Assembly: GCF_030464885.1 (NCBI RefSeq)
Contig: NZ_JALPRJ010000005.1
Coordinates: 124,001 to 188,000, forward strand
DNA length: 64,000 bases
Source of the DNA: Caballeronia sp. SEWSISQ10-4 2
Lineage (GTDB): Bacteria; Pseudomonadota; Gammaproteobacteria; Burkholderiales; Burkholderiaceae
Reading direction: 5' to 3'
The notes under the pieces were generated by a model, which did not search any database, was not told the DNA's origin, and saw only the letters and a program-made list of their open reading frames with translations. How positions within the stretch are numbered: position 1 is the stretch's first letter; every line of letters starts with the position of its first letter. Shown piece by piece: positions 40,275-61,098 of the stretch. A program made the position numbers and the translations under genes.

Positions 40275-40334
40275 GATGATTCTAAGCAACATCGCTTTAT
40301 ATCGAATGATGTGTCTTGGAATGAATAAAGTCAA
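40275..40334 (-). promoter_or_regulatory. Regulon promoter module A (drives the BKACE operon)
   Basis: On the minus strand: -35 TTGACT (40334-40329), 17-bp spacer, -10 CATCAT (40311-40306), directly followed by TCGATATAAA. A 37-bp dyad (GATGATTC at 40275-40282; GAATGATG at 40304-40311) spans the -10 and start region. A second palindrome, TAGGGAATTCCCTA (40341-40354), sits six bases upstream of the -35. The DNA from 39894 to 40274 is a leader of about 400 bases without a recognisable gene. The same module occurs at four other places in the window. Confidence 0.75.
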
Positions 40335-40443
40335 GTGCAGTAGGGAATTCCCTAGGAGAAACGCTTTGACTGCGCCCCTTGTTTGGTCGCCCCGGCGACC
40401 CGGCTAACCGCCGAGTCGCATCTACTTGTCGAGGAATGAGCGA

Positions 40444-40986
40444 ATGGCTAAGCCCTACTCCACCGCAATCGATACGACCCTGGATACCATCGAGCCGTGT
40501 TGCGGCTCAGCGGGAAAGGAAGCGCCCGAGATCTTCGACGATCGGGGCAGAACAGTTCCGTGGATGACCCGAACCTTGAATCGGCTCTATGACGTACAAG
40601 CGCAGAGGATCCTCGACCGGGAAAAAGTATCCATCGCGCATTGGTACTACCTGCGGGTGCTGGCTCAACGCGGCGAACTGAATCAACTGGAACTCAGCAA
40701 GCGTGTTGGCATCGCCTCGACAACCGCTGTGCCCGCTTTGGACAGCATGGAAAAGCGCGGTCTATTGAAGAGGACTCGCGATCCGAAGGACCGGCGCAAG
40801 TACTACGTTAGCCTCACTGACGATGGCAAACGTCTGGTGGATAAGATGATGCCGGAGATCATCCGCATGATCTCCGGCTCTTTCGATGGCGTGGACCCTG
40901 ACGAGATGCTCATCTTCTGGAAGGTCTTGCATCAGATCGCGCAAAACCTCTCAGAGAAGTCCAGCGAAGACTCGGTCGTCGATTAG
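40444..40986 (+). CDS. MarR-family transcriptional regulator 1
   Basis: A 180-residue MarR protein with the winged helix WYYLRVLAQRGELNQLELSK followed by RVGIASTTAVPALDSMEKRG and the wing RDPKDRRKYYVSL. A variable N-terminal tail of about 40 residues leads to FDDRGRTVPWM, which is nearly identical in the paralogue at 54038-54583. ATG 40444 is preferred because GAGGA lies eight bases upstream; a TTG 18 bases earlier would put that ribosome binding site inside the coding region. It diverges from the BKACE operon, with promoter module A between them, so it is the best candidate for the regulon repressor. Confidence 0.88.
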   Translation: MAKPYSTAIDTTLDTIEPCCGSAGKEAPEIFDDRGRTVPWMTRTLNRLYDVQAQRILDREKVSIAHWYYLRVLAQRGELNQLELSKRVGIASTTAVPALDSMEKRGLLKRTRDPKDRRKYYVSLTDDGKRLVDKMMPEIIRMISGSFDGVDPDEMLIFWKVLHQIAQNLSEKSSEDSVVD

Positions 40987-41108
40987 CAGGCTAACGTCTG
41001 TGCTGGACGCACATATAACAAAACGGCCGAGGCTTCCTACCGATACAGGCGGGAAAGACTCAGCCGCAGATCATGCGCTTTTCGAAAATGGCGCCTTAAC
41101 GCCCAATA

Positions 41109-41393
41109 CTACAGACCGCTTGCTGTGCCAGAACGAGACGCTCCGTCAGCCGCACCGCCGTATCCCGAAACGGCGGCTTGGGCTGTGGCGTTCTGTGCCG
41201 CGACCTTTGCTTCAGCGGCCTGGATGTTTTCGGGGTAGTGAACATAGTCGCGCGGGTCGTAACCGGCTTTCTCGACTTGCGCCAGTTCCGCATGCACCTG
41301 CGCGCGACTCAGCGGCTGACTGGACTGTGCGAACGACGCAGCGGGTGCTGCAATAAGGCCCGCAATAAGGACCATCCTAGTAAATGACTTCAT
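41109..41393 (-). CDS. DUF4148 secreted protein
   Basis: A 94-residue protein with signal peptide (MKSFTRMVLIAGLIAAPAASFAQ) and the DUF4148 core (LSRAQVHAELAQVEKAGYDP). This family is abundant in Burkholderia and relatives; its function is unknown. ATG 41393 begins the signal peptide. It sits alone between MarR1 and the ABC transporter, on the opposite strand to both. Confidence 0.85.
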   Translation of the reverse strand: MKSFTRMVLIAGLIAAPAASFAQSSQPLSRAQVHAELAQVEKAGYDPRDYVHYPENIQAAEAKVAAQNATAQAAVSGYGGAADGASRSGTASGL

Positions 41394-42001
41394 GATGACG
41401 TACCTCAACGATTGTCGTTAGTGGCGCTACAAAGGAGCTTCTCCGCCACGGTTGAATGAAGTCTAAAGGACACAAATCACTAGGGTAAGTACTAGTTTTT
41501 CCAACTCTCCGTTGCAGGTGCGTCAACAATTGGCCAACACGGGTTCGACCGCGTCTCTTGCAGAATGTGGTCGCCCGAGAAGACCGTTCCTTGTGACGTG
41601 CTAGCCGCCGTTTGCTCCGATTCAGCAAGGCGCTTGATAAACCTTGCAGACGCATTCCTGCCAAGACTCAAGCAGGAACGGTTCAACTGCGCTTTTCGCC
41701 TCCCTCACGGCTGTCCCCAACACGGCGCTCCTTCTCATCGCTAGGGAGATTCCCTAGGATTCTTGACTTTGGTCGTCCCGAAACACATTATTCGATATAA
41801 ATCTATCTGTAATAGCATGATTTTATGTCAACTTAATTGTGGACATACGGATCGAAGCGATCTTACCCATCCCGTATACGACGAGTTCGAATGACCTGAT
41901 TGGACCATTTAAATAACTAAGGAATACGTAATTAATACAGCAATCGTTATCCGTCTCAACCAACATTTAATCCAAATTCATCACCCAATTCGAGGATCGT
42001 C
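41394..42001. other. 600-base intergenic region with promoter module B
   Basis: No gene is supported here. The only clear features are the promoter module at 41763-41822 and the palindrome CTAGGGAGATTCCCTAG (41741-41757) next to its -35. The part nearest the transporter gene (41822-42001) is AT-rich leader. Confidence 0.6.
41763..41822 (+). promoter_or_regulatory. Regulon promoter module B (drives the ABC transporter)
   Basis: -35 TTGACT (41763-41768), 17-bp spacer, -10 CATTAT (41786-41791), then TCGATATAAA; dyad CATTATTC (41786-41793) and GCATGATT (41815-41822) with 21 bases between. Transcription would start near 41798, about 200 bases before the binding-protein gene. Confidence 0.78.
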
Positions 42002-43225
42002 ATGTTCGATAAGTTCCGAGTCTGGCAAGCTGCAGCGTCAAGAATGCAGACCCAGTTTGTTGTGAAAGACGGGTTGCTTACCAAGCAAGACGGCTCCAAA
42101 GACCTCATTGTCGTGCCGGCTGGCGGAATCCGCCCGCGCAAGAAAGTGCTCAAGGATTTTCTTCGCACGATCGGCCTGCTTGTTTCGGCAGGTCTTATCT
42201 GCACTGCGGCACATGCGGCAGAAGACTCCCTCACGAACCGCCAAGGCGACATCACCCCGCTCTGCGGTACCAAGCCGATGATTGTTGGCGTGTCCGACGG
42301 ATACGGTGGCAATACCTGGCGCAAGACAGGCCTTGCCGAGGTCAAAGATGAGCTAAGCCGCTGCAAGAACGTCAAGCGGGTCATCTACAGCAATGCCAAC
42401 GGTGACCCGCAGAAGGCGAACTCGGACATCAACAGCATGGTCGCGCAAGGGATCAACGTCCTTGTCATGCTCCCGGATTTCGGTGCCGTGCAACTCCCGG
42501 CCATGCGAGCGGCCATGAAAGCTGGCGTGGCGGTTGTACCGTATTCGGCGCAGATATCGGGAGTCGCTGGACGCGACTATGTCGTCAACGTCGTTGGGGA
42601 CACAAAGCAGATCGGTGTTCTTTGGGCTGATTGGCTCGGAACAACCCTCAAAAAAGGCAACGTAGTGTTCCTGGGCGGCTCGCCTGGTGCCGCCGGGTCG
42701 CAGAATTTCATGGACGGCCTGAGGGGCGGTCTCAAGAAGTACCCGGACCTGAAGCTGTTAAACGAACAGTTCGTTGTTACAAACTGGAGCCCGGTGGACG
42801 CGCAAAAGGCCACGGCGGGCCTCATTGCGCAGTACCCGCAGATTAACGCCATTGTTACTGACTACGGAGTGACTGCACTCGCAGCAGCGAAAGCGTTCGA
42901 ACAGGCACATCTTCCGGTACCGGCCATCGTAACGATCGCAAGCGACAACGAGCTGAACTGTCATTACCTGTCGGCCAAGAAGTCTGGAACCGCCTTTCAA
43001 TACTACACGCTTGACGGCACGACGACATACGTGCGCTTTGCAGTGCGACATGGGGTAGCGGCCTATCAGGGCATGAAAGACAACGAGTCGCCCGCAGTCC
43101 TTCCTTCCGGATACGCCGACAGCGCCAAGGGCCTCGATCCCAAGTGCGACCCGGCCGCGCCGCCTGATGCCGACCTTTCCTCAGCGCTCCCTCCAGAAAA
43201 ACTCAAGGCCGTGTTTGAGCAGTAA
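42002..43225 (+). CDS. Sugar-type ABC transporter substrate-binding protein (RbsB family) with long N-terminus
   Basis: A 407-residue type-1 periplasmic-binding protein of the ribose/galactose branch (PMIVGVSDGYGGNTWRKTG; GINVLVMLPDFGAVQLPAM; IVTIASDNELNC). The signal peptide core (FLRTIGLLVSAGLICTAAHA) starts only at about residue 53. The first 48 residues are a basic extension without known homology. ATG 42002 has GAGGATC seven bases upstream, so it may be genuine; GTG 42146 would give a normal signal peptide but has a weak ribosome binding site. Seventeen bases separate it from the ATPase-permease gene. Confidence 0.83.
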   Translation: MFDKFRVWQAAASRMQTQFVVKDGLLTKQDGSKDLIVVPAGGIRPRKKVLKDFLRTIGLLVSAGLICTAAHAAEDSLTNRQGDITPLCGTKPMIVGVSDGYGGNTWRKTGLAEVKDELSRCKNVKRVIYSNANGDPQKANSDINSMVAQGINVLVMLPDFGAVQLPAMRAAMKAGVAVVPYSAQISGVAGRDYVVNVVGDTKQIGVLWADWLGTTLKKGNVVFLGGSPGAAGSQNFMDGLRGGLKKYPDLKLLNEQFVVTNWSPVDAQKATAGLIAQYPQINAIVTDYGVTALAAAKAFEQAHLPVPAIVTIASDNELNCHYLSAKKSGTAFQYYTLDGTTTYVRFAVRHGVAAYQGMKDNESPAVLPSGYADSAKGLDPKCDPAAPPDADLSSALPPEKLKAVFEQ

Positions 43226-43241
43226 TAGCTCGGGATAAATC

Positions 43242-45719
43242 ATGAACGACCAGAACACATTGCTTCAGATTGACGGCGTCACCAAAATCTTCCCAGGTGT
43301 GCGCGCACTCGATAACGTCACGTTTTCAGTGCTCGCGGGAGAAGTACACGGTCTCGTCGGCGAGAACGGCGCTGGTAAGTCCACGCTCATGGCTGTGGCG
43401 TCCGGCGCTCTCGTCCCCGAACAGGGGCGCGTCGTTATCAATGGCGTGGAAACCAAGGGCGACACTGACGAGGCGCGGCGGCTGGGGTTGGCGATCGTGC
43501 GACAGGAACCGGCTCTCATGCCCGATCTGAGCGTCGCAGAGAATCTTTACCTCGGTGTACCTGAGGAACAACGCCCGTCTCTCATGCGAACAAGCGAATG
43601 GGCACAGCAACTCCTTCGGCAGTGGAGTGACGACGTCGCGATTGACGCGAACGAGCGCGTCTTGAGCTTAAACCCTGAACAACGCTTCATTGTCGAGATC
43701 GTAAAGGCACTTGCCGCCAAACCTAAGGTTCTGGTCCTGGATGAACCGACCGAACATCTGCTGACCGAGGACGTCGATCGTCTCTTTGAACGCATTCGTA
43801 AAGTCACTGCGTCGGGCTGTTCAGTCGTCTATATCTCGCACCGCATTCGCGAAGTACAAAAAATCGCCAATCGTCTTACCGTGCTCCGCGATGGACAAGG
43901 GCAAGGGACCTACGACGCGGCTGGCCTCAGCGAGCAGCAGATTGTCGAACTTATCGTTGGCGGGGCGCTCGACCGGGAGTTTCCCGCCAAAGCTGGAAAT
44001 GGTCGCACCGGCATGGTCCTCGATGTAGCGTCGCTACGCGGTGCAGGCTTCACCGATGTATCGCTTCAGGTCCGCAAGGGTGAAATCGTGGGCCTCGCCG
44101 GCATAGACGGCAATGGACAGCGCGAGTTCATGCGCGCCCTTGGCGGTCTGGCCCGAAGCCGCGGTAGCGTCAACGTGAACGGGAAGTCGGCGAAACTCCG
44201 GAATTCCCAGGCTGCCGCCGCTTCAGGTATTCGCTGCCTCCCTGGAGACCGGCACAGGGAGGGCATCTTCGGTGACCTATCGGTGCGCGAGAACTTCTCG
44301 ATCCGCAGTCTTCCGTTCGATTCCATCAAAGGCTGGATCAGCCAGCGAAGTGAAGCCAAGCGCACCAAATCGGCAGTGGAAAGTTTCGCAGTCAAGACGC
44401 CGTCCGTTGAGACACCAATCCGCTCCCTATCGGGAGGCAATCAGCAAAAGCTCGTCCTGGCGAGCGTCCTCGCAAGCAAACCCGAGGTGCTCCTCGTCGA
44501 CGAACCGACGCAAGGCGTAGACGTTGGTGCCCGGATGGAAATTTACAAAGTGCTTCGTGAAGCCGCCGCAACAGGCACCGCTGTTATCGTCGTCTCCTCG
44601 GACGCGATGGAAGTGGCGGGTCTGTGCGACCGAGTGTTGATTTTCTCTCGCGGGCACATCGTAAGGGAACTGCGCGATGCGGCCGTCAGCGAGAACAACA
44701 TCACGTCTGCGGTGCTTACCGCGACCACCGAGCGTGAGAGGGGTTCGGCAAGCATTCCCGGATTCTGGAAGTGGGCTTCTGGAGACTGGGCCCCTCTCGT
44801 CATGCTTGCACTGGCAGTCTGCGCTCTGGGTATGTATGCAGCCCATGTCAACGAAACCTATCTGTCTACGCGAAACCTGAGTGGGATGTTGGCACTGGTG
44901 GCGACGCTGGCCATCGTCGCATATGGGCAACAGGCGCTTATGCTGGTTGGAGGTATCGACCTGTCTGTCGGTCCTCTGATGGGCTTGATGGTCGTTATAC
45001 AGTCCTTCTTCCTGAACGACGGATCCACTTTAGGGCATCAGCTCTCGGGATGGGTCATTGTGTTTCTCGTCGCTATAGCAGTCGGGCTGGTGAACTGGGT
45101 ACTGGTCGGCCCCTTCCGGCTGCATCCAATGGTTGCAACGCTGGCGACTTACATGGCTTTGCAGGCGGTTTCCCTTCTTTTACGCCCGGTTCCGGGCGGG
45201 CTGATCGCTGATTCGGTGGTCGAGACAATTGGTATGCAGGCTGGATTCATACCGATTATCGCGATCGTTGCTGTCATTCTCGCCGTCACACTTGAGTTTG
45301 CCCTCTTCAAGACCAGGCTTGGTCTCGTGTTTCGTGGCGTGGGCTCACGGATCGAAGCTGCTCGTATGGCGGGGGTACGCTCACATCTAACGCTGCTGAC
45401 CGCGTATGTGGGCTGCTCGCTCCTTGCTGGCGTCGCCGCCGTGCCGATGATGGCGCAGGTAGGGTCCGGCGACCCGAGTGCAGGCATCAACTACACGCTG
45501 GCCAGCATCGCAGCCGTCGTCATCGGCGGGGCGAGCCTGTTTGGCGGACGCGGGTCGTTTGTCGGCTCCCTGCTTGGTGCCCTTCTCATCATCCAGGTCA
45601 ATGTGGTCACGTCATTTCTGGACATTGGAGATTCTTGGCAATCCTATCTGTTGGGCGGAATGATTCTGGCTTCGGTCGCCCTATATTCCAAGAGCCGCGA
45701 AATGGCGGTGGCAAAATGA
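43242..45719 (+). CDS. Fused ABC ATPase (RbsA-like, two cassettes) and permease (RbsC-like)
   Basis: An 825-residue fusion. Residues about 5-240 form the first ABC cassette (Walker A GENGAGKST near 40, Walker B VLVLDEPTEHL near 165; its signature region LNPEQRFIVEI is degenerate). Residues about 255-500 form the second cassette (degenerate Walker A GIDGNGQREF, intact signature LSGGNQQKLVLAS). Residues about 515-825 are a BPD_transp_2 permease with membrane helices. In ribose-type transporters RbsA and RbsC are separate chains. The stop codon overlaps the start of a second permease (ATGA), so the complete importer would be one binding protein, a double-ATPase/permease fusion and a free permease. 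Confidence 0.87.
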   Translation: MNDQNTLLQIDGVTKIFPGVRALDNVTFSVLAGEVHGLVGENGAGKSTLMAVASGALVPEQGRVVINGVETKGDTDEARRLGLAIVRQEPALMPDLSVAENLYLGVPEEQRPSLMRTSEWAQQLLRQWSDDVAIDANERVLSLNPEQRFIVEIVKALAAKPKVLVLDEPTEHLLTEDVDRLFERIRKVTASGCSVVYISHRIREVQKIANRLTVLRDGQGQGTYDAAGLSEQQIVELIVGGALDREFPAKAGNGRTGMVLDVASLRGAGFTDVSLQVRKGEIVGLAGIDGNGQREFMRALGGLARSRGSVNVNGKSAKLRNSQAAAASGIRCLPGDRHREGIFGDLSVRENFSIRSLPFDSIKGWISQRSEAKRTKSAVESFAVKTPSVETPIRSLSGGNQQKLVLASVLASKPEVLLVDEPTQGVDVGARMEIYKVLREAAATGTAVIVVSSDAMEVAGLCDRVLIFSRGHIVRELRDAAVSENNITSAVLTATTERERGSASIPGFWKWASGDWAPLVMLALAVCALGMYAAHVNETYLSTRNLSGMLALVATLAIVAYGQQALMLVGGIDLSVGPLMGLMVVIQSFFLNDGSTLGHQLSGWVIVFLVAIAVGLVNWVLVGPFRLHPMVATLATYMALQAVSLLLRPVPGGLIADSVVETIGMQAGFIPIIAIVAVILAVTLEFALFKTRLGLVFRGVGSRIEAARMAGVRSHLTLLTAYVGCSLLAGVAAVPMMAQVGSGDPSAGINYTLASIAAVVIGGASLFGGRGSFVGSLLGALLIIQVNVVTSFLDIGDSWQSYLLGGMILASVALYSKSREMAVAK

Positions 45720-46738
45720 GAAAGATCATGAGCAATCAGGCAGACGTGGTATCGAATCTCTCGGAGTCATCCTCCCCGAATTCACGGTCCATTCGGGTTC
45801 CAGCATTCAGTGAGTTCGGGTGGATCTGGGTCGGATTGATACTTCTCTTCTCCGTCAGCTCAACGGTCGCGCCAGGCACCATGACTCGTGGTTCGATTCT
45901 GGCCATGCTTCCGTTCGCAGGCATCCTCGCAATTGTCGCAACAGGACAGACCCTGGTTATCCAGCAGCGCGGGCTCGACATGTCGGCAATTGGAATGGTC
46001 TCGCTTGCCGGCGTGGTGATGGCCCGCACCGGATTCGGCCTCGATTCCATCATCCTTGCTGTGATCCTCACCGTGTGCGTGGGTGCGATTGTTGGAATCG
46101 TCAATGGAATATTGGTCTCGCAGTTTGCGATTACACCATTGGTTGCAACGTTGGCAGTCAACGCGCTTCTCATCGGTGGTGTCCGCTCGTTGACCGGCAA
46201 TGTTCCCGTCAACGTCCCGACCATCATGCAGACGATCTCGCACGCCCAGTTCATTGGTTTGCCTGCCAACGTACTGTTCGCCTTCGCGTTCGTGGTAACG
46301 GCGTGGTTCATCACCCGGAAAACCACGATCGGACGCAGGTTTGTCGCTGTGGGCGTAAATCCGCGCGCGGCAGAAGCCGCTGGGGTGAGAGTCCTGCAGT
46401 ACAAGATTGGTGCTTACGTTGCCTCTGCAGTGTGCTTCTCTGCCGCCGGAATGCTCCTCGCCGGGTTCATCGGTAGCGCGTCGCAGACGTCGGGCAACGA
46501 CTATCTGCTTCCCGCCATCGCGGCTGTAGTTGTCGGCGGCACGCCATTCACCGGCGGAAAAGGCAGCGTTATCGCTAGCGCGGTCGCGGCGCTGTTCATG
46601 GCGCAGCTCAGCCAACTTGTGCTGGCACTTGGTGCGGGGCCCGCAGTTCAGTTGCTGGTGCAGGCGTGCGCGATTCTGCTCGCCACTACCGTTCGCCATC
46701 TGCCAGCAGCTATAAGAACGTTTCGCAAAAGCGCGTAG
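45716..46738 (+). CDS. Sugar-type ABC transporter permease (RbsC-like)
   Basis: A 340-residue inner-membrane permease of the BPD_transp_2 family (LAIVATGQTLVIQQRGLDMSAI ... AGVRVLQYKIGAYVASAVCF ... GTPFTGGKGSVIASAVAALFM). ATG 45716 overlaps the previous stop by four bases, so the frame start at 45635 inside the fusion gene is rejected. It partners with the fused permease to form the channel. The transported molecule is unknown; co-regulation with aromatic-type genes hints at a sugar-like or cyclic polyol compound. Confidence 0.87.
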   Translation: MRKIMSNQADVVSNLSESSSPNSRSIRVPAFSEFGWIWVGLILLFSVSSTVAPGTMTRGSILAMLPFAGILAIVATGQTLVIQQRGLDMSAIGMVSLAGVVMARTGFGLDSIILAVILTVCVGAIVGIVNGILVSQFAITPLVATLAVNALLIGGVRSLTGNVPVNVPTIMQTISHAQFIGLPANVLFAFAFVVTAWFITRKTTIGRRFVAVGVNPRAAEAAGVRVLQYKIGAYVASAVCFSAAGMLLAGFIGSASQTSGNDYLLPAIAAVVVGGTPFTGGKGSVIASAVAALFMAQLSQLVLALGAGPAVQLLVQACAILLATTVRHLPAAIRTFRKSA

Positions 46739-47053
46739 TGGAAAGTAGTAGCTGAGGTCTGCGCCATTATCTTCCGGGCACGCGTTGTATTGGCTCGAAA
46801 GGCGGGCGTTTTGGGCTGGGTACCTGGGAGCGAGGAGCCGGTTGGTCGCTTCGTTGAACTGCATCGCCAGCACTTGGATGACGTTACCTTTTTCCGATTG
46901 GCGGTAGACGACCGGAAGCTGATCCCCGGAGCCAATCGTCCGACTGGTTCAACGTTGTCCGAACGGCGGACCTGACTTTGCGAGCCGATTGCACCGACCC
47001 GGCAGAGGTCGACAAGCAATCTCCGGAGACTTTTTTATAGTGAGGATAACGAA
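46739..47053. other. Intergenic region of about 315 bases before the porin
   Basis: Open frames on both strands here have no family resemblance. The last 20 bases carry TGAGGATAACGA, the porin ribosome binding site. No regulon promoter module is present, so the porin may be read through from the transporter operon. Confidence 0.5.
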
Positions 47054-48124
47054 ATGAGAAAGATCATTTTTTGCGCATCGTTGATGGCTTTCAGTGCCTG
47101 CAACACCCACGCGCAGAGCACTGTGACCCTGTACGGACGCGTCTCATCGGGTCTCGATTTTGTCACGAACGTTGCAACGCCAAACGGCCAGTCGAAGAAC
47201 AATTACAGGTTCGGCAGTAACCAGTACGGATACAGCTGGTTTGGCCTGACAGGCAATGAAGACCTCGGAGGAGGCTTGCACGCTGTCTTTAAACTCGAAA
47301 GCCTTTTCACCTCTGGAACGGGTCAGACTCCACCTAACACGATCTTTACCCGCGACGCGTATGTGGGTTTGTCCGATGATAAATATGGAAGTATCTGGTT
47401 CGGCGAGGCCATGAGCCTGACCGACGAAACCGGTTGGTACATTGACCCGCTGGGGGAGCAGGTAGGGATAGGTGTTGGCAACTTCGCATTCGGGCGGGCG
47501 TGGGGTCCCCGGTCAAATGTCGTCACTTACAACTCACCCAATTGGGCCGGCTTCTCCTTCCGCGTGCAGGACGGATTTGGCAACGAGGCTGGAAACTTCC
47601 GCGGCGGACGCCAGTTCAGTGTGAGCGCACAGTACACACTCCCCAGCTTCGCCGCGTACGGAGTTTATGAAGAAATCCACGATGCCAACGGAAAGTTTTC
47701 AAGCCTGTACGCCGCGTCACGAGAATACATGGCCGGTGCCACATACACGTTGGGCGGACTCAAGTTCTACACCGGCTATCAGCAACTTGTCTCATCCGGA
47801 CAGGACACAGTCGCCGATACGTTTAATCCTAACGCCGCCACACGCAGTCAGCAGGAGTGGATCGGGGCCTCGTATCGGGTTACCCCTGCCCTCGCCTTCC
47901 AGGCCGCCTGGTATCACGGTAACGTAAATCATGGCGGTGGCACGGGAAATCTCGGTGCCATCGGCACCACCTACAACCTGTCAAAACGGACATTCCTCTA
48001 CCTGACCGTCGGAGCGATGTTCAACGGCAAGAGTGCCGCGTTCCCGGTTGAGACGGCCGACTCTCAACCGCTGCCTGGCCACAACCAGCAAGGTGGCTAC
48101 TTCGGCATCATGCACTACTTCTAA
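47054..48124 (+). CDS. Outer-membrane porin (Burkholderia OmpC-like, Porin_4)
   Basis: A 356-residue trimeric-porin protein. Signal peptide MRKIIFCASLMAFSACNTHAQ, then the Burkholderia/Neisseria porin start STVTLYGRVSSGLDF and motifs YSWFGLTGNEDLGGGLHAVFKLES and TYNLSKRTFLYLTVG. It ends in GIMHYF with the C-terminal Phe needed for outer-membrane assembly. Placed directly after the ABC importer genes, it probably supplies the outer-membrane path for the same substrate. A strong hairpin follows. Confidence 0.92.
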   Translation: MRKIIFCASLMAFSACNTHAQSTVTLYGRVSSGLDFVTNVATPNGQSKNNYRFGSNQYGYSWFGLTGNEDLGGGLHAVFKLESLFTSGTGQTPPNTIFTRDAYVGLSDDKYGSIWFGEAMSLTDETGWYIDPLGEQVGIGVGNFAFGRAWGPRSNVVTYNSPNWAGFSFRVQDGFGNEAGNFRGGRQFSVSAQYTLPSFAAYGVYEEIHDANGKFSSLYAASREYMAGATYTLGGLKFYTGYQQLVSSGQDTVADTFNPNAATRSQQEWIGASYRVTPALAFQAAWYHGNVNHGGGTGNLGAIGTTYNLSKRTFLYLTVGAMFNGKSAAFPVETADSQPLPGHNQQGGYFGIMHYF

Positions 48125-53026: not shown

Positions 53027-53063
53027 GGGACCGGAGTAAGTGCTGAAGCACTAACTCCGGATC
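53027..53063 (+). promoter_or_regulatory. Hairpin leader element, copy 3 (upstream of LysR gene)
   Basis: GGGACCGGAGTAAGTGC, TGAA, GCACTAACTCCGGATC, followed by GACAGAGGA and the ATG at 53080. Inner stem AGTGC/GCACT and outer stem CCGGAGT/ACTCCGG pair fully. Compared with copies 1 and 2 the stem bases change in pairs (GGCGC/GCGCC to AGTGC/GCACT), which supports a functional RNA fold. Confidence 0.72.
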
Positions 53064-53079
53064 GACAGAGGACTGGGCA

Positions 53080-54015
53080 ATGGACTGGACTTACCGCCTC
53101 CGGCTAAGGCATCTGCAGGTACTGTTGAGCCTCGCGAGCACGGGCAACCTCAGCCAATCGGCAGCGGCGCTCAACACGACGCAGCCGGCTCTGTCGAAAT
53201 GGCTGAAGGAACTTGAGGAAGACGTCGGCCTGCCCCTCTTCGAGAGGCATGCGCGCGGTCTGCGGCCCACCTCGTACGGCGAGGCGCTGATCGAGCACGC
53301 GCGCCGGATCGAAGCGCATCTCGACATTGCGCGTGACGATATGCAGGCGCTGCGCGCGGGCGGCAGCGGCCTCGTCAGTATTGGGACGTCGGGTGTGTCG
53401 GCGGCGGACACGGTGCCGCTCGCCGTGTCGCGGCTTCTCGAACGCATGCCGCGCGCGCAGGTGCGGCTCGTCGAAAGCACGATGAACCAGCTAATGCCGC
53501 AGCTTGCACGAGGGGAACTGGATATCGTCGTCGGCCGCTCGGGTCAGCAGTACGACGATCCGCGGCTGCAGACCGAGACGCTCTATACGGAGCCGATCAA
53601 CTTCGTCGCACGGCCTGATCATCCGATAACGGAAAAGGCAAAGCTCGGCTGGGACGATGTGCTCGCGTATTCGTGGATCGTCTGGCCGCAGGGCACGCCC
53701 GTGCGCAACGCGCTGGAGACGGCGCTGGCGGCAGCGGGACGCACGCTGCCCGATCACTGCGTCGAATCGAACTCGTCGATTCTCAATCTCACACTGCTTA
53801 ACAACACCGATCTGGTGGGCGTCGCCTCGCATCGGGCTGCGCTTCGCTTCGAGCAGCTGAACGCGCTTCGTATTCTGCCCATTCAACTCGAAGGCTTCGG
53901 CTCAGTGTCGGTCTACTGGCACGCCGAGAACGTCAATCGCGCGGCGGTGGCCATGGCATTGGAAAGTCTCCGCGCTTTCGCGGACCCGCACATGAAAGAA
54001 TGGCACACTGCTTAA
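53080..54015 (+). CDS. LysR-family regulator of the gentisate operon
   Basis: A 311-residue LTTR with N-terminal HTH (HLQVLLSLASTGNLSQSAAAL, TQPALSKWLKELEEDVGLPL) and effector-binding domain; the HTH resembles the CbbR/GbpR-like group that carries KWLKELEEDVG. It is divergent from gentisate dioxygenase, its likely target. The 230-base intergenic region holds an 8-bp inverted repeat, AAGCTATA (52937-52944) and TATAGCTT (52987-52994), which could be a regulator contact. Translation starts directly after hairpin leader copy 3. Confidence 0.87.
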   Translation: MDWTYRLRLRHLQVLLSLASTGNLSQSAAALNTTQPALSKWLKELEEDVGLPLFERHARGLRPTSYGEALIEHARRIEAHLDIARDDMQALRAGGSGLVSIGTSGVSAADTVPLAVSRLLERMPRAQVRLVESTMNQLMPQLARGELDIVVGRSGQQYDDPRLQTETLYTEPINFVARPDHPITEKAKLGWDDVLAYSWIVWPQGTPVRNALETALAAAGRTLPDHCVESNSSILNLTLLNNTDLVGVASHRAALRFEQLNALRILPIQLEGFGSVSVYWHAENVNRAAVAMALESLRAFADPHMKEWHTA

Positions 54016-54037
54016 CGCCTCGGACGCTACCGCCAGC

Positions 54038-54583
54038 TCAATCCACGACCGTGTCGCTTTGGGACGCTTGGGTCAGGTTCCTTTCGATCTGATGCATCAC
54101 TTTCCAAAAAGTACGCATATCCTTCTGAGTGATCCCGTCAAGTGACCCCGAAATCATGTCGGTTAGTTCGGGCAGCAATTCATCTACCAGCCGCTTGCCC
54201 TCAGGCTTCAGATTGACAAAGTACTTTCGTCTGTCGTTTGGATCTCGGGTTCGCTGTACGAGGCCGCGCTTTTCGAGGTTATCCAGCGCAGGTACCGCAG
54301 TGGTGGATGCAATGCCTACACGCTTGCTGAGTTCCAGCTGGTTCAGTTCACCGCGCTCTGCCAGCACACGAAGGTAGTACCAGTACGCGATAACGATGTT
54401 CTCCCTGTCCAGAATCTTCTGCGCTTGTGCGTCGTAGAGCCTGTGCACCGTTCGCGCCATCCACGGCACAGTCCTGCCGCGATCATCAAATACGTCAGAA
54501 GATTCTTTCGCTCCCGGTGCGGGTCCCGGTCGTACAGCAACGTTCATAGTTGCTTTCGCCGCAGTGGAGTTTGCCTTGGGCAT
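54038..54583 (-). CDS. MarR-family transcriptional regulator 2 (paralogue of MarR 1)
   Basis: A 181-residue MarR protein, nearly identical to MarR 1 over the DNA-binding core (RGELNQLELSKRVGIASTTA is shared in full) but different in the N-terminal tail and the C-terminal dimer helices. ATG 54583 is preferred over the ATG at 54601 because AAGGA lies eight bases upstream of it, as in MarR 1. It diverges from the transhydroxylase genes, with promoter module D between them. Convergent with the LysR gene, 22 bases apart. The same DNA-binding core suggests both MarR proteins see the same operator but sense different ligands. Confidence 0.88.
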   Translation of the reverse strand: MPKANSTAAKATMNVAVRPGPAPGAKESSDVFDDRGRTVPWMARTVHRLYDAQAQKILDRENIVIAYWYYLRVLAERGELNQLELSKRVGIASTTAVPALDNLEKRGLVQRTRDPNDRRKYFVNLKPEGKRLVDELLPELTDMISGSLDGITQKDMRTFWKVMHQIERNLTQASQSDTVVD

Positions 54584-54683
54584 TCGCTCGTTCCTTGACA
54601 TAAGGGTGGCCAATCGAACGCGGAGCCGATTGGCAAAAAATATGACGATTACATGCGTCTTGCTAGGAGATTCCCTAGGGTCC

Positions 54684-54743
54684 TTGACTTTATTCGCCCC
54701 AAACAACATCATTCGATATAAATCGATCTGATATAGAATCATC
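54684..54743 (+). promoter_or_regulatory. Regulon promoter module D (drives the transhydroxylase genes)
   Basis: -35 TTGACT (54684-54689), 17-bp spacer, -10 CATCAT (54707-54712), then TCGATATAAATCGA, which is itself a perfect 14-bp palindrome. Larger dyad: CATCATTC (54707-54714) and GAATCATC (54736-54743). A CTAGG-N6-CCTAG palindrome (54663-54678) ends five bases before the -35. The remaining intergenic DNA to 54897 is leader without other features. Confidence 0.8.
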
Positions 54744-54897
54744 TTTGTGCAAATAATCCGTCGCAAGGAAGATCATACAACAGGTGCCGATGTATTCGTC
54801 TGAATCTGCGGAGCCTCTTATGGTGCGGTACCGCAAAACTGACGTGTAACGGGCAAGTGAGACGGCACGAGCGCATTTCAGCTCAGGAAGGATTCAT

Positions 54898-57855
54898 ATG
54901 CAAAGACACATCCTGGTACTCATACTCTGGCTAATGCCGACCGCTCTACGGATGGCGGCACGCATGTTTCCTTCCGTGCGTGAACATCTCGGCGCGGGGA
55001 ACTGGCTGATCCAGCTCCGGCTTCGGGACAATAGCCTCGCGAGGCAGCTTCATTTCAGAAACGGCACCGTGTCGGCACGCTGGGGTGTGACTCCTCGGCC
55101 CGACGCCGAACTTGTCTTCATGGATGCGGCCACAGCACGCCAGATGCTGGCGCCAACAACCGATCATGCGTTCCTGATTGATGCGCTCAAGAACTTCAAG
55201 ATCACGCAAGGCGGCAGTGATCAGGCACTCGTCTGGTTCGGTCAACTGGTGAACACGATGAAGACGGCCTCCTGGCGCAGGGGCACCCGGATGAAAGATG
55301 GGACCACCCGTTATGTCACGCTCACCAATGGGGGGCCCGTCTTTGTCTTCGTCAAGGACGGCAAGATCATCCGGACAACGCCCATTGATCTCGCGGAGGA
55401 GGACGGACCAAGCTGGACCATCACCGCACGGGGTCGCCGGTTTTCGCCTGCACGACGTGCAACCGTCAGCCCGCACGCGCTCTCACTCAAATCCCTCGTT
55501 TATTCCGACAAGCGGATTCTTTATCCAATGAAGCGGGTCGATTTCGACCCGAAGGGTGAACGCAATCCTCAGAACCGGGGGATTTCGGGCTACGAGCGTA
55601 TCAGTTGGGATGAAGCGCTCGACGTGGTCGCAGGCGAAATCCGCCGTATGAAGCAGGAGCACGGCCCCGGTGCTATCGCGATGGCCACGGGTGCGCATCA
55701 TCAGTGGGGAAACGTCAACTACTACCTGAGCGCCATGCAGCGCTTCGGTAACCTGATTGGATACACCCGCGTCGAAATGAGCCCGATTAGCTGGGAGGGC
55801 TGGTACTGGGGTGCCATGCATCACTACGGCAACAGTCTACGTCTGGGCACGCCGAGCTTTTACGGCACGACAGAGGACTGTCTTGAACACGCGCAGGTGA
55901 TCGTCTTCTGGTCGAGCGACCCGGAGTCGACCAATGGGGTGTACGCCGGGTTCGAGGGCACTGAGCGCCGCTTGTGGGCCAAGCAGCTCGGGATGCAGTT
56001 CGTTCACATCGACCCCTACCTGACGCAGTCCGCCCAGTTGCTCGGTGGAAAATGGCTACCGATCAAGCCCGGCACCGATTCGGCGCTCGCGATCGCCATC
56101 ATGTATGAATGGATGATCAGCGGTAGTTACGATAAGGAATACGTAGCCTCGAAATCGACGGGCTTCGACGAATGGCGCGCCTATGTTCTCGGTGAAGAGG
56201 ACGGCATGCCGAAGACGCCGGAGTGGCAAGAAGCTGAGACCGGTATTCCCGCGAAAGACGTCCGCAGTCTCGCGACGTTGTGGGCGTCGAAGAAGACGTA
56301 CCTCGCTGCAGGAGGCCTCGGCGCAGGCTTTGGCGGAGCATGCCGCACGGAGGCGGGGGCCCAATGGACGCGAAGCCTCGTCATGATGATGGCCATGCAG
56401 GGATGGGGGAAGCCTGGGATCAACTTTGGCAATCTGCAGATTGGCGCTCCTCAGGACCTGAATTTCTACTTTCCCGGCTATGCCGAGGGCGGAATCTCGG
56501 GTGACCTGAATTACACCGCGAGCGCGGCCAACAACTATTGCCGCATGCCTCACATCATCACGATCAATCCGGTGAAGCAGTCTATCCCTCGCCAACGGTT
56601 TGCCGAGGCGATCACGCAGGGAAGCGCGGAAGGCTACTTGTGGGACGGCTTCTCGGCTGAAGGGCAATTTGGTCAATACTCGTATCCCAAGCTAGGCCAT
56701 TCGCGGGTTCACATGCTGTACCGCTACGGCTCTTCTTCTTTTGGCACGGTCCCGGGCTCGAACAGACTCATCGAAGCGTATCGTCATTCATCCCTTGAGT
56801 TTGTCGTCAATCAATCGATATGGATGGAGAACGAAGCGCAGTTTGCAGACATCATCCTGCCAGCGTGTACCGCCCTCGAGCGTGACGATATATCCGAATG
56901 GGCAAACTGCGGCGGCTACATCCAGCATGCGCAGAGCCAGCTCAATCACCGCATGATGATCATGCAGCACAAATGCATCGAGCCTCTTGGCGAATCCAAA
57001 TCAGACTATCAAATTTTCCTGGAGATCCTGACAAAACTCGGCTACGGCGGCATGTACTCGGAAGGCGGTGGATCGGAACTGACCTGGTGCGAACGGATAT
57101 TCAACTCCACGGACCTACCCAGGCGGACCACCTGGAAGAAATTCCTGCAGAAGGGCTATCACGTCGTGCCGCCTCCCAAGGACGATGACAAGCAGCCGGT
57201 GGACATGCGCTGGTTCGCAGAGGGCCGCACCAAGGACTTACCGGAAGCGAATCCCCTTCCCGGCGTGTATTCGATTGGATTCGGCCAGGGACTTTCAACG
57301 CAATCGGGCAAGTTCGAGTTTGTCCCGTCCAGCCTACGCCGTATCGAGCAGATCGATCCTGCGCGGCCGGCGGTCAACCGATATATCAACAGTCAGAGCG
57401 GTGTGAAGCAACGGTTCCCGCTACAACTCGTGACCAATCACCCGGTCTACAGCTTCCATACCCAGGCTGATGGGAAGAATAGCCACATCAGCACGATCAA
57501 TGAGCACCGGATGAACGTTGGAGGCTACCGATACTGGGTCCTGCGAATGAGCCCCAAAGATGCTTCGGCGCGCGGCCTGCGCTCGGGCGATCTGGTCCGG
57601 GTCTATAACGGCCAGGCGTCGGTCATCTGCGCAATAGACGTGTCGCAACTCATCAAGGATGGCGTTGCGCGCGGAAACGAATCATGCGGCGAACTCGATC
57701 TGATCCACACTTCGGTAGGTATCGTTGATCGTGGAGGTTGTCTCAACCTCCTGACTCCAGGGCGAAAGATGAGCCTGACCGCAGACGGGATTGTTCCGAA
57801 CAGTTGCTGGGTGGAGGTAGAGAAATGGAACGCGACAATGGAAAAGGCAGCATGA
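54898..57855 (+). CDS. Molybdopterin transhydroxylase-like large subunit with SCP2-like N-terminal extension
   Basis: A 985-residue protein. From about residue 140 it is a DMSO-reductase-family molybdopterin enzyme closest in pattern to pyrogallol-phloroglucinol transhydroxylase and resorcinol hydroxylase large subunits. It has no N-terminal Cys cluster, starts YVTLTNGGPVFVFVKDGKI, and has the active-site-like region WYWGAMHHYG (302-311) and FWSSDPEST (337-345). Residues about 30-120 are an extra domain (WLIQLRLRDN ... FRNGTVSARWG ... DALKNFKITQGGSDQALVWF) with the look of an SCP2 sterol-carrier fold. This is absent from the classical enzyme of about 875 residues. No Tat signal, so cytoplasmic. 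Its partner is the ferredoxin-like subunit next door, overlapping by 31 bases. The subgroup, not the exact reaction, is supported. Confidence 0.8.
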   Translation: MQRHILVLILWLMPTALRMAARMFPSVREHLGAGNWLIQLRLRDNSLARQLHFRNGTVSARWGVTPRPDAELVFMDAATARQMLAPTTDHAFLIDALKNFKITQGGSDQALVWFGQLVNTMKTASWRRGTRMKDGTTRYVTLTNGGPVFVFVKDGKIIRTTPIDLAEEDGPSWTITARGRRFSPARRATVSPHALSLKSLVYSDKRILYPMKRVDFDPKGERNPQNRGISGYERISWDEALDVVAGEIRRMKQEHGPGAIAMATGAHHQWGNVNYYLSAMQRFGNLIGYTRVEMSPISWEGWYWGAMHHYGNSLRLGTPSFYGTTEDCLEHAQVIVFWSSDPESTNGVYAGFEGTERRLWAKQLGMQFVHIDPYLTQSAQLLGGKWLPIKPGTDSALAIAIMYEWMISGSYDKEYVASKSTGFDEWRAYVLGEEDGMPKTPEWQEAETGIPAKDVRSLATLWASKKTYLAAGGLGAGFGGACRTEAGAQWTRSLVMMMAMQGWGKPGINFGNLQIGAPQDLNFYFPGYAEGGISGDLNYTASAANNYCRMPHIITINPVKQSIPRQRFAEAITQGSAEGYLWDGFSAEGQFGQYSYPKLGHSRVHMLYRYGSSSFGTVPGSNRLIEAYRHSSLEFVVNQSIWMENEAQFADIILPACTALERDDISEWANCGGYIQHAQSQLNHRMMIMQHKCIEPLGESKSDYQIFLEILTKLGYGGMYSEGGGSELTWCERIFNSTDLPRRTTWKKFLQKGYHVVPPPKDDDKQPVDMRWFAEGRTKDLPEANPLPGVYSIGFGQGLSTQSGKFEFVPSSLRRIEQIDPARPAVNRYINSQSGVKQRFPLQLVTNHPVYSFHTQADGKNSHISTINEHRMNVGGYRYWVLRMSPKDASARGLRSGDLVRVYNGQASVICAIDVSQLIKDGVARGNESCGELDLIHTSVGIVDRGGCLNLLTPGRKMSLTADGIVPNSCWVEVEKWNATMEKAA

Positions 57856-58697
57856 CCGGCTGGGCGCTCGTAGTGGACGTTTCCCTCTGCATCAATTGCA
57901 GAAACTGTGTGATCTCGACAAAAGACGAGTACACCGGCAACGAGTTCCCGGGCTATTCGGCACCGCACCCTCCGGAGGGCCTCGATACGATTCGTATCGA
58001 ACGCCACGTTCGAGGCGAGGGGTCGCTGGTGGACGTGACTTATATACCGAAGATGTGCAATCACTGCGACAACGCGCCATGCGTTAAGGCGGCGACCGAT
58101 GGGGCAATCTATAAGCGCCCGGACGGCGTCGTGATCATTGACCCGGAGAAGTCACGAGGCCGACGGGATCTGGTGACGACGTGCCCCTACGGCATGATTG
58201 AATGGAACGAACAGGAACAGGTGCCGCAGAACTGGAATTTTGACGCGCACTTGCTTGACGCCGGATGGAAAGAACCGCGTTGCGCACAAGCCTGCCCGAC
58301 AAAGGCGCTACGTGCGCTAAACATGCCAGACAGAGAACTGGAAGAAATGGTAAAGAAGGAACACCTGTCGGTCATTAACCCCGAGTACGGCACAGGGCCT
58401 CGCGTCTTCTACCGCAATCTGGATGACGCGCTAAGCCATCTGGTAGCAGGCAACGTCTGCGAAACCACTGGCGACGGTCGACTCCGAAACCTGGAAGGTG
58501 TTGAGGTTGTGCTGCACGACTCCGCCGGCGGTGGCGAACGCACGACAACGACTGACCATTTCGGGGATTTCCGGTTCTCAGGTTTAACTGAGCAGACTTC
58601 GACAATCGAACTGCGGATCCGAAAGGACGGTAACGAAAAAATCATCGCGACAAGAGCGCGCATAGGGAGCGTCAACCTCGGCACGCTGTTGTGTTGA
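57825..58697 (+). CDS. Transhydroxylase-like small subunit: ferredoxin with C-terminal Cna-B-like domain
   Basis: A 290-residue electron-transfer subunit. Iron-sulfur ligands are Cys22, 25 and 28; 78, 81 and 86; 120; 153 and 157, plus further Cys in the DMSO-reductase beta-subunit pattern. After about residue 210 comes a beta-sandwich (LEGVEVVLHDSAGGGERTTT, then GDFRFSGL and TSTIELRIRKDG) like the Cna-B/carboxypeptidase-regulatory fold. That extra C-terminal domain is known from the small subunit of pyrogallol transhydroxylase and strongly supports this subfamily. ATG 57825 is chosen for the GGAGG seven bases upstream; ATG 57852, overlapping the large-subunit stop as ATGA, is the alternative. 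Confidence 0.82.
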   Translation: MERDNGKGSMTGWALVVDVSLCINCRNCVISTKDEYTGNEFPGYSAPHPPEGLDTIRIERHVRGEGSLVDVTYIPKMCNHCDNAPCVKAATDGAIYKRPDGVVIIDPEKSRGRRDLVTTCPYGMIEWNEQEQVPQNWNFDAHLLDAGWKEPRCAQACPTKALRALNMPDRELEEMVKKEHLSVINPEYGTGPRVFYRNLDDALSHLVAGNVCETTGDGRLRNLEGVEVVLHDSAGGGERTTTTDHFGDFRFSGLTEQTSTIELRIRKDGNEKIIATRARIGSVNLGTLLC

Positions 58698-58767
58698 TGT
58701 CTTATGTGATAGCGCCGAAGCGCGTTAAAGCATTTTCCGTATTATGACATTCGTAGGAGACTTAAGC

Positions 58768-59541
58768 ATGGAGCTGAACGACAAGGTGGCGGTTATCACG
58801 GGCGGAGACAGTGGAATCGGATTCGCTTCGGCACGCCTGTTCCTCGAAGCGGGTGCGGATGTCGCCATCATGAGCAACAATCCGGAAACGCTTAACGTCG
58901 CTCGCAGTCAGCTTGGCGCCAAGGTCGTGACGATTGAGGCTGATGTCACGGATACCAAGGCTCTCGGCGCCGCCTTCGCAGAAGTTGGTCGCCAGTTTGG
59001 TCATATCGATGTCTTGTTTGCAAGTGCTGGCGTAGCATCCCCCACCCCTTTGGAAGACGCATCCAGTGAGCTCTTTGAACGCATACTCAGGATTAACATC
59101 GGCGGAAGCTTTTATACGGTACAGGCCGCGCTTCCATACCTTCGTTCCGGATCATCCGTTATCCTTATCGGATCCGTCGTAGCAACAATGGGAATTGCAG
59201 GATTCGGGGCGTACGCTGCGAGCAAAGCTGGACTATCGGGCATGGCACGCGCGCTGGCCTCAGAGCTCACGCCCAAAGGCATTCGTGTGAACACGCTGGT
59301 TCCTGGTCCCACTCGAACTCCAATCTGGGGCACCATCGCTCATACGGAGAGGGAATTGCAGGAGCTCGAGAAAAGCCTGATCAGAAGTATTCCCATTGGC
59401 CGTCTCAACGATGCCGAGGAGGTAGCCCAAGCCGCGCTTTTCCTCGCTTCGGATTACTCAAGTAGCATGCAGGCGGCGGAAATCGTTATCGATGGTGGAG
59501 CATCCCGTGCCCCACAGGGCGCACCCGCATATCGCGTCTGA
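58768..59541 (+). CDS. Short-chain dehydrogenase/reductase downstream of the transhydroxylase
   Basis: A 257-residue classical SDR: cofactor motif ITGGDSGIGFASARL near residue 10, SAGVASP at the NNAG position, catalytic Ser in LIGSVVATMG and YAASK near 152-156. ATG 58768 has AGGAG eight bases upstream. Placed 70 bases after the transhydroxylase small subunit in the same direction, it may reduce or oxidise a hydroxylated ring product; phloroglucinol reductase is also an SDR, which makes that an attractive but untested idea. The spacer has a weak hairpin (AGCGC-CGAA-GCGC) resembling the core of the leader element. Confidence 0.82.
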   Translation: MELNDKVAVITGGDSGIGFASARLFLEAGADVAIMSNNPETLNVARSQLGAKVVTIEADVTDTKALGAAFAEVGRQFGHIDVLFASAGVASPTPLEDASSELFERILRINIGGSFYTVQAALPYLRSGSSVILIGSVVATMGIAGFGAYAASKAGLSGMARALASELTPKGIRVNTLVPGPTRTPIWGTIAHTERELQELEKSLIRSIPIGRLNDAEEVAQAALFLASDYSSSMQAAEIVIDGGASRAPQGAPAYRV

Positions 59542-59755
59542 TTGATTGTCCACGAAAGATTCAGGAGGGGCCGTAGACCGTATTTTCGGCCAGCAGCTCG
59601 TGCCGTAACCTCATTCCTGACTCGATGAAGGAACACAAGGCAGACACCGGTGCGTCGAAATCGGGCACGCCGGTGTCGTCTCGGTCAAATGCCATCCTCG
59701 CTTCAGGATCCCTCAGTAATACGAATTTATAACGGTATATTCTTGCTACTCTCCT

Positions 59756-60748
59756 TCAAATTGCAAAGCTTTCGAGGCTTGCCGGATGGAACAGCTCGCG
59801 CGGTTCAAGCCGGCGACTTGACAGCCCCTCTGCAAAATGGCGGGCGAGAAAGCGGTCAATAGGATGCTCATTGTCCGAGAAGCCGTATGACCAGAAGTCC
59901 GTACCCATCAGTTTGCGAGCGGCACGTAGCTGGTCCTCAACGAACGGCAGTGTGACTTTGGTGGCCGCCGTATCGCTCAGCCGTGCCAACGCGAGGGCTT
60001 TAGACTTCTCAAATGCCTTCATCAATGCGCCCGGCAGCCAGGGATGACTCTCTGCCAGCGTCTTCCTGACTCCAAGCGTGTGCATGATCGGAAACAGCTT
60101 CGTACGCGCGTACCAGTCTGTTGCGGCTTTGTGCGGATCGTCGAACAGATACTTGACCTGGGGATGCCCACGGTCAAAGCATGAAGGCGCTCGCGGTCCA
60201 ATGACGGCATCTATTTCCCCGTCCGCCAGCAGGCTCGATATCGTCTTGCCTTCCGGCGCGTTCTCCAGCTTGACATCCGAAGGCAAGTTCAGCGTTATTT
60301 TCTCCACCCTTGTCGGATCTTCGTATCCACCGCGCACCCAGGTCACATCAGAGGGCTTTACGCCGTACTCCTCCTCGAGAAAAAGACGGACCCAGACGTT
60401 TGCCGTCAACTGATATTCCGGCACGCCGATGCGCTTGCCCTTCAGATCTTCCGGGCTGTCAATGCCCCTATCCGTGCGCACATAAATCGACGTGTGTCGA
60501 AAGGCTCTCGACGGAAAGACCGGCACGGCGATGTAGGGTGAGGTTCCTGCAGCGGTCTTCACTGAGTAGCTGCTGAGCGAGAGTTCGCAAATATCGAAGT
60601 CCGCGTGTCTGAAAGCGCGAAAGAAGATCTCCTCGGGATCCTGCAACATGAAGACCGGGTCCACGCCCTCGATTTGAACCTCACCATCGACCAATGGCCT
60701 GATCCGATCGTAGTTGCCTACGGCAACGGACAACTGAAGCTTGCTCAT
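59756..60748 (-). CDS. 4,5-dihydroxyphthalate-decarboxylase-like protein (NMT1/binding-protein fold, cytoplasmic)
   Basis: A 330-residue protein (LQLSVAVGNYDRIRPLVDGE at the start; ELSLSSYSVKTAAG; AFRHTSIYVRTDRGIDSPED; RIGVPEYQLTANVWVRLFL) matching the Pht5/4,5-dihydroxyphthalate decarboxylase group. This group has the type-2 periplasmic-binding fold but works as a cytoplasmic enzyme. ATG 60748 has AGGAG six bases upstream and there is no signal peptide, which argues against a transporter binding protein. In this regulon it could decarboxylate a hydroxylated aromatic acid, for example gallate to pyrogallol, feeding the transhydroxylase (inference). Driven by promoter module E. Confidence 0.75.
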   Translation of the reverse strand: MSKLQLSVAVGNYDRIRPLVDGEVQIEGVDPVFMLQDPEEIFFRAFRHADFDICELSLSSYSVKTAAGTSPYIAVPVFPSRAFRHTSIYVRTDRGIDSPEDLKGKRIGVPEYQLTANVWVRLFLEEEYGVKPSDVTWVRGGYEDPTRVEKITLNLPSDVKLENAPEGKTISSLLADGEIDAVIGPRAPSCFDRGHPQVKYLFDDPHKAATDWYARTKLFPIMHTLGVRKTLAESHPWLPGALMKAFEKSKALALARLSDTAATKVTLPFVEDQLRAARKLMGTDFWSYGFSDNEHPIDRFLARHFAEGLSSRRLEPRELFHPASLESFAI

Positions 60749-60858
60749 TGTTTCTCCTCTTGCTGAAAATACAACCTTTGCGAGGTTGAGGCTTTGCCTG
60801 TGCCCATGGACGTTCCAGACGAACGGGCAACGTTGATCTCGATCTGCAATCATCAATA

Positions 60859-60902
60859 TTAGATTTATATCGAATCATCTTTTATGGAACGATTTCTGTC
60901 AA
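60859..60902 (-). promoter_or_regulatory. Regulon promoter module E (drives the decarboxylase-like gene)
   Basis: On the minus strand: -35 TTGACA (60902-60897), 17-bp spacer, -10 GATGAT (60879-60874), then TCGATATAAAT. The second arm of the 37-bp dyad seen in the other modules is missing here. Expected transcript start near 60867, about 120 bases ahead of the ATG at 60748. Confidence 0.72.
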
Positions 60903-61038
60903 GAAATTCTGAGACCGTCATGTGCCGAGATGTTCGCAAGAAAACGCAAGGGTCACGCATCAAGGCTGGATGGGAAGCATGTGCGCCTGCAGCAAGAAGA
61001 ACCGAGACAAGACTTGCCCGGAGATCCCCTTGAATTCC

Positions 61039-61098
61039 TTGACATTATCCATCCCGAAACGCATCATTCGATATAAATTTATTACTTAAAGCATCATG
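61039..61098 (+). promoter_or_regulatory. Regulon promoter module F (drives the flavoprotein gene)
   Basis: -35 TTGACA (61039-61044), 17-bp spacer, -10 CATCAT (61062-61067), then TCGATATAAAT; dyad partner GCATCATG at 61091-61098. An eroded copy of the upstream palindrome (GGAGATCCCCTTG, 61020-61032) precedes the -35. Modules E and F are divergent, about 140 bases apart. Confidence 0.77.

Follow-up and report, generated by a model that had tools for sequence, protein, structure and literature searches.

Within a 64,000-nucleotide stretch of the Caballeronia sp. SEWSISQ10-4 2 genome (the window), we identify five copies of one module of about 100 bp, each ahead of a catabolic or transport gene, together with two genes for MarR-type regulators. 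The pattern TTGACW-N17-SATBATTCGATATAAA matches exactly five times in the window and never in 100 dinucleotide shuffles, and the matches lie where, and on the strands on which, the initial annotation had placed them from the letters alone. That annotation had also described the copies as pointing at catabolic or transport genes, which is true of all five, and MarR genes as lying beside two of them, which is borne out, both being divergent from a module. Taking the block limits from a set of 80 modules described below, module 1 (40258..40357, minus strand, with the exact pattern at 40296-40334) precedes a unit of BKACE, homogentisate-dioxygenase (HGD)-like cupin, MocA and MFS genes and is divergent from marR1. 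Module 2 (41740..41839, plus strand) precedes a sugar-type ABC transporter unit. Module 3 (54661..54760, plus strand) precedes a molybdenum (Mo) hydroxytransferase unit and is divergent from marR2. Module 4 (60826..60925, minus strand) precedes a decarboxylase-type gene, and module 5 (61016..61115, plus strand) precedes an FAD dehydrogenase gene.

The two regulator genes are marR1 (40444..40986, plus strand) and marR2 (54038..54583, minus strand), the latter with its start placed at 54583 within a listed open reading frame (ORF) that extends further upstream (54038-54766). Both products contain the MarR winged-helix domain (PF01047; scores of 52.6 and 52.7 bits, cut-off 24.6) and they are 64% identical to each other. 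Around the predicted recognition helix all 25 of 25 residues are the same, against 91 of 155 elsewhere; this alignment marks MarR1 and MarR2 as paralogues that do not differ in the segment predicted to read DNA. The string ASTTAVPALD recurs in all 38 rows of the close MarR group, a broken copy among them, and two distant MarR proteins carry AATTSVPALD instead. Since the predicted DNA-reading segment is identical in the two proteins, one shared DNA site for both is the simplest reading.

Taken together, the genes behind the modules look like a pathway for the breakdown of a phenolic compound. The unit of module 1 (34323..40007, minus strand), presumably co-transcribed, comprises BKACE (38949-40007), the HGD-like cupin (37712-38755), a MocA-type oxidoreductase (35902-37011) and an MFS transporter (34323-35774). 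The cupin has no Pfam match; databases name it homogentisate 1,2-dioxygenase, and it matches the solved structure of that enzyme weakly (E 0.00021). The unit of module 2 (42002..48124, plus strand), whose genes would likewise be transcribed together, encodes a sugar-type binding protein, a fused ATPase-permease, a permease and a porin. Behind module 3 (54898..59541, plus strand) lie genes for the Mo hydroxytransferase large subunit, an Fe-S subunit and an SDR protein. The large subunit matches PF21423 (103 bits against a cut-off of 27) and PDB 4v4c (E 5e-271) and the adjoining Fe-S protein matches PF13247, the two subunits together placing the enzyme in the pyrogallol hydroxytransferase / resorcinol hydroxylase family. 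The gene of module 4 (59756..60748, minus strand, start placed at the ATG at 60748) encodes an NMT1-like protein that some sources name 4,5-dihydroxyphthalate decarboxylase and others an ABC transporter substrate-binding protein; an enzyme of the 4,5-dihydroxyphthalate-decarboxylase type appears more likely here than a transport binding protein. Module 5 precedes a gene (61228..62979, plus strand) whose family matches are to FAD dehydrogenases of the ketosteroid / oxocyclohexene type. Jointly, the units may import and degrade a hydroxylated (carboxy)aromatic compound, which would be decarboxylated, undergo Mo-dependent hydroxyl transfer, have its ring opened by the HGD-like cupin and be cleaved by BKACE, perhaps in that order.

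The module is restricted to this cluster within its own genome. Across the 9.44-Mb assembly (212 contigs), the strict pattern has exactly five matches, all in the window, and reversed-pattern controls have none; a looser pattern permitting three mismatches returned no further copies across the same 9.44 Mb. If no more than one mismatch is allowed, matches to the 16-bp core TTCGATATAAATCGAT are confined to three of the five module sites; with two mismatches they take in the remaining two modules, three places elsewhere in the genome and one reversed control. A chance or genome-wide motif is ruled out by the shuffles, the whole-genome scan, the three-mismatch scan and a scan of 398 genomes of the family. 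The initial annotation had held that a motif occurring at random or ahead of housekeeping genes would speak against a regulon, and the scans of the genome and of relatives returned no such distribution.

Relatives of the cluster were sought with the 985-aa Mo enzyme encoded behind module 3. This search confirmed 264 loci, and a matrix built from the five window sites was run over the best 80. Among these 80 loci, the module is found in all 15 with a close hydroxytransferase relative (83-94% identical; L006-L019 and L021) and in none of the 65 others, whose relative is more distant (at most 61%). At all but one of the close loci (14 of 15) a module stands directly ahead of the hydroxytransferase gene. 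Paraburkholderia elongata, P. atlantica and Paraburkholderia sp. BL9I2N2 each have one locus of each enzyme type, with modules only at the close one.

We collected 80 non-identical modules from 19 genomes, three of which were added from the family search, allowing up to four substitutions and leaving out two more modules at locus edges. Counted from the first T of TTGAC, the conserved block spans -23 to +76, about 100 bp, and contains in order an upstream palindrome, CTTGACTT, TTCATTCC, CACATCATTCGATATAAATCGAT, GGnATCATC and AAATGATCCG; the elements that reach to about +76 were absent from the initial annotation. Outside these limits the flanks show almost no conservation, and a conserved block between unconserved flanks points to selection rather than recent copying. 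The window copies are very alike in their core, as they would be if they were recently duplicated DNA without function. We regard this explanation as ruled out, since conservation is limited to the block, recurs across 19 genomes and is accompanied by no long flank identity. A sequence like AGATCATACAAC, at about 54776-54789 in the window, recurs downstream of many hydroxytransferase modules, and a similar sequence at about 600-640 of L011 survives ahead of a MarR gene that has lost its module.

Of the 80 modules, 76 precede the same few genes, 74 having a relative of a window-cluster gene within 1.6 kb and two an MFS transporter. These targets are the sugar-type transporter, Mo hydroxytransferase, FAD dehydrogenase, decarboxylase-type protein, BKACE, HGD-like cupin (the first gene after the module in 7 cases), SDR and MFS genes. 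The four modules outside this set are one at 19359 in L012, which is followed by a gene for an NMT1-like binding protein, one at 18042 in L019, and two (L014, 22660; L018, 373) that lie less than 400 bp from the end of the fetched DNA.

We find that the module also keeps company with one type of regulator. All 15 close loci encode a MarR protein 66-90% identical to MarR2, versus weak matches (31-32%) in two of the 65 distant loci. We counted 37 non-identical close MarR genes; 31 of them, like both genes in the window, are preceded at a distance of 25-172 bp by a divergent module. In the sample of 398 family genomes, the strict pattern, which misses diverged modules, occurs in 14: 13 with 2-5 copies and one (G317) with a single dissimilar match. 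One genome (G300) has one extra match away from the cluster. Homologues of MarR2 (E 1e-20 or better, with at most eight candidates scored per genome) occur in 16 of the 398 genomes, and the 13 that have intact copies (58-100% identical) are the same 13 that have 2-5 modules. The strict pattern is thus present in 13 of 13 genomes with an intact close MarR versus 1 of the 385 others, the latter being the single dissimilar match. Two genomes (G336 and G375) have a distant MarR (46-47%) and no module. At L088 (G374), a lone, stop-interrupted MarR gene is present and the module and other tested cluster genes were not found, a state suggestive of cluster loss.

The decarboxylase-type gene provides a comparison for this association. 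Its homologues (E 1e-130 or better) occur in 66 of the 398 genomes, and orthologues at least 79% identical in 51, of which 13 have both MarR and module and 38 have neither, as judged by the strict pattern with promoters not individually read. Because the 38 genomes that have this gene and no MarR also have no module, the module appears to follow MarR rather than the gene. Two loci that are probably from Cupriavidus (L086 and L087) hold a sister cluster with an HGD-like cupin (57-58%), BKACE (67-74%), a decarboxylase-type protein (62%) and a MarR (45-47%). When their distant MarR genes were checked for a shared operator, no module was found, just loose TCGA-like matches. A search of the genus of these two loci returned the same 2 of 60 genomes, and of 399 genomes sampled from the order, only the window's own was returned.

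The comparison of regulators in relatives covered stretches reaching about 10 kb to each side. Of the regulators in the window cluster, the MarR type alone is present in all 15 close loci. The LysR gene at 53080-54015 adjoins marR2 and might be taken for the regulator of the module, but it accompanies the gentisate genes, LysR and gentisate dioxygenase (91% or more) both being present in 3 of the 15 close loci, and the module is in 15 of 15 versus three for LysR. Within these stretches we reject it and consider it a most improbable candidate. The gentisate set itself (49108-54015), with its own divergent LysR, lies inside the cluster without a module and comprises a 3-hydroxybenzoate-hydroxylase-type FAD protein, a GST-type isomerase, an FAA hydrolase and gentisate 1,2-dioxygenase. 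A partial survey for other regulators found none in 8 of the 20 ORFs of L012 or in 2 of the 17 of L009. At L091, the cluster region contains a pair of IclR genes (13241-15229) with aldehyde dehydrogenase and SDR genes close by. A regulator encoded elsewhere, for example an activator, could in principle read the module, leaving the MarRs to control their own genes or something else, and the module does carry more conserved elements than one repressor needs. We think this unlikely, as the occurrence of the module in the family sample goes with that of MarR and the great majority of close MarR genes (31/37) are divergent from a module.

Comparison of genomes shows that the module is specific to this cluster, that about 100 bp of it are conserved in 19 Burkholderiaceae genomes, that it stands ahead of the same few genes and that it is coupled to one MarR type. 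On these grounds the five-unit regulon is well supported, and the earlier suggestion of five units sharing one MarR-type regulator now has strong backing from comparative genomics.

We place the probable operator over the predicted transcription start. Sigma-70 promoters have a -35 element TTGACA, a spacer of 16-18 bp and a -10 element TATAAT; TTGACW and the 17-bp spacer of the module fit this form, and CATCAT agrees with TATAAT at 4 of 6 positions. RNA polymerase bound to TTGACW-17-CATCAT would start near +35, inside a compact dyad. Over the 80 modules, short-arm symmetry is strongest at +35.5 (TCGATATAAATCGA), scoring 4.17 where 150 column shuffles reached no more than 4.0, and long-arm symmetry at +33.5, with 6.21 against a shuffle maximum of 5.62. 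The MarR operators predicted from the compact dyad are TCGATATAAAGCGA at 40292..40305 in module 1 (minus strand, centre +35.5), TCGATATAAATCTA at 41792..41805 in module 2 (plus strand) and again at 60860..60873 in module 4 (minus strand), TCGATATAAATCGA at 54713..54726 in module 3 (plus strand), and TCGATATAAATTTA at 61068..61081 in module 5 (plus strand).

A different operator, a 37-bp dyad in four of the five modules, had been put forward in the initial annotation. The dyad is looser than that description: in its degenerate form it fits two of the four sites fully and the other two only with mismatches. Of the 8 positions in each arm, 6, 6, 6 and 5 pair in the four sites and 2 in the fifth. 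Both arms do fall within conserved stretches (+24 to +30 and +52 to +58), but they can also be read as a direct repeat of ATCAT, 30 bp apart, and the dyad, centred at +41, scores below those at +35.5 and +33.5 over the 80 modules. We see a slim chance that it is the site bound by MarR, and consider that the operator is likely the compact TCGATATAAATCGA dyad.

Just 5' of TTGAC we identify a palindrome, CTAGGGA-n-TTCCCTAG, that the initial annotation did not contain. With up to two mismatches it is present in three of the five window modules, as CTAGGGAATTCCCTAC at 40340..40355 in module 1 (minus strand), CTAGGGAGATTCCCTAG at 41741..41757 in module 2 (plus strand), which alone in the genome matches the searched form exactly, and CTAGGAGATTCCCTAG at 54663..54678 in module 3 (plus strand). 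At the same threshold it occurs in 17 of 18 transporter, 12 of 13 BKACE and 7 of 7 HGD-type modules, and in 6 of 16 hydroxytransferase, 3 of 10 FAD, 1 of 9 decarboxylase and 2 of 7 remaining modules; these classes were labelled by hand, two modules labelled otherwise actually precede an MFS gene, and the transporter class takes in cases matched by the fused ATPase gene rather than the binding protein. This uneven presence makes the palindrome look accessory. The MarRs might instead bind the palindrome (CyAGGGA-n-TTCCCTrG), as activators or repressors, with the TCGATATAAATCGA region serving mainly as promoter or as another protein's site. Its near-perfect form in transporter, BKACE and HGD-type modules and the location of its one exact genomic copy inside this cluster agree with that idea, but its scarcity in the hydroxytransferase, FAD and decarboxylase classes does not, and the core is in all modules, by construction of the set. 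We judge such a role improbable. The palindrome and the elements from +51 to +76 probably play an accessory part in adjusting individual promoters, and the presence of additional conserved elements suggests that at least two dimers, or another protein, bind there. An RNA element was considered and rejected, Rfam having no match within 34000-64000 of the window. The stretch from +48 to +79 folds somewhat better than its mononucleotide shuffles (mean -5.2 versus -3.63).

We propose that the five modules are copies of one promoter-operator of about 100 bp marking a small catabolic regulon, and that both MarRs probably repress all five units through TCGATATAAATCGA over the predicted start. As in local catabolic regulons of the MarR type, the regulator gene is divergent from a target promoter with a shared site. 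MarR1 and MarR2 would share one operator and hold all five promoters shut until binding of a phenolic intermediate releases them, and the two proteins may sense different pathway compounds. From sequence evidence, joint repression by the paralogues at the predicted start site ranks as the most probable of the regulatory schemes considered. A more elaborate version is possible, if doubtful: each pathway promoter could be a two-input switch that opens only once two compounds have released both MarRs, with several cooperative MarR dimers held by one module. Within such a scheme, retention of the DNA-reading segment and divergence elsewhere in the two proteins would make every promoter a two-input switch.

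Several observations weigh against joint MarR repression through the compact dyad. Six of the 37 close MarR genes have no module in front, three of these showing a visibly diverged one, and in L016 the hydroxytransferase promoter has only a diverged module, the intact ones standing ahead of neighbouring genes. The co-occurrence counts argue strongly for a link between module and MarR but are not independent, as the two are linked in related genomes. In the partial regulator survey, two IclR genes and one TetR gene were found in one relative's cluster region. The compact dyad has TCGA intact on either side in 41 of the 80 modules and in one of the five in the window, the one beside marR2, and the long dyad at +33.5 does as well against its own null. 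The predicted -10 element CATCAT is weak. Finally, the conserved block is far longer than a single MarR dimer requires, and the upstream palindrome is unexplained.

Further features of the window lie outside the five units. Two pirin-type genes (30224-32420), one with a quercetinase-type C-terminal domain, adjoin an aldo/keto reductase gene, and the L012 cluster also holds a pirin gene similar to these. A single ORF of 2960 aa occupies 16174-25056 on the minus strand.

The analysis connects an unnamed MarR subfamily with a DNA module and a set of genes that are both defined. In their cluster, a molybdenum hydroxytransferase of the anaerobic pyrogallol/resorcinol type stands alongside a cupin resembling a ring-cleavage dioxygenase. 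If our proposal is correct, the system would be a test bed for how duplicated repressors of one DNA specificity split sensing, and the module would be a marker by which the remainder of a so far undescribed phenolic pathway could be located in Burkholderiaceae. We recognised no description of the module or the cluster in the literature searched, which left out most subscription journals.

Among known regulators, the best NCBIfam match of MarR1 is HpaR (TIGR02337, E 1.4e-13), the MarR repressor of homoprotocatechuate degradation; its score of 50.8 bits falls below the cut-off of 121.2, and MarR1 is therefore not HpaR. The nearest published case is the Variovorax iad locus for auxin degradation, like ours an aromatic-catabolic locus with two MarR genes, encoding IadR (MarR_73) and IadR2 (MarR_50) (PMC9613470). 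There, one MarR represses through a site between its own gene and a divergent catabolic operon and is released by substrate; a 24-bp binding sequence was identified for one MarR, and neither a ligand nor a DNA site is reported for the second (PMC9613470). Unlike what is described for Variovorax, the system here has up to five copies of one long module, and the two MarRs have an identical predicted DNA-reading segment.

Phloroglucinol reductase is an SDR enzyme. The window hydroxytransferase is 61% identical to a protein on the Aromatoleum anaerobium LuFRes1 plasmid, and it shares its family (PF21423; PDB 4v4c) with the pyrogallol-phloroglucinol transhydroxylase and resorcinol hydroxylase of anaerobic phenol pathways (PMC10470551, PMC10100899). 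The phloroglucinol cluster of Clostridium also has a keto-acid cleavage enzyme and phloroglucinol reductase (PMC10470551). Unlike these anaerobic systems, the cluster reported here combines the Mo enzyme with an HGD-like cupin, a decarboxylase-type protein, an FAD dehydrogenase and a sugar-type transporter.

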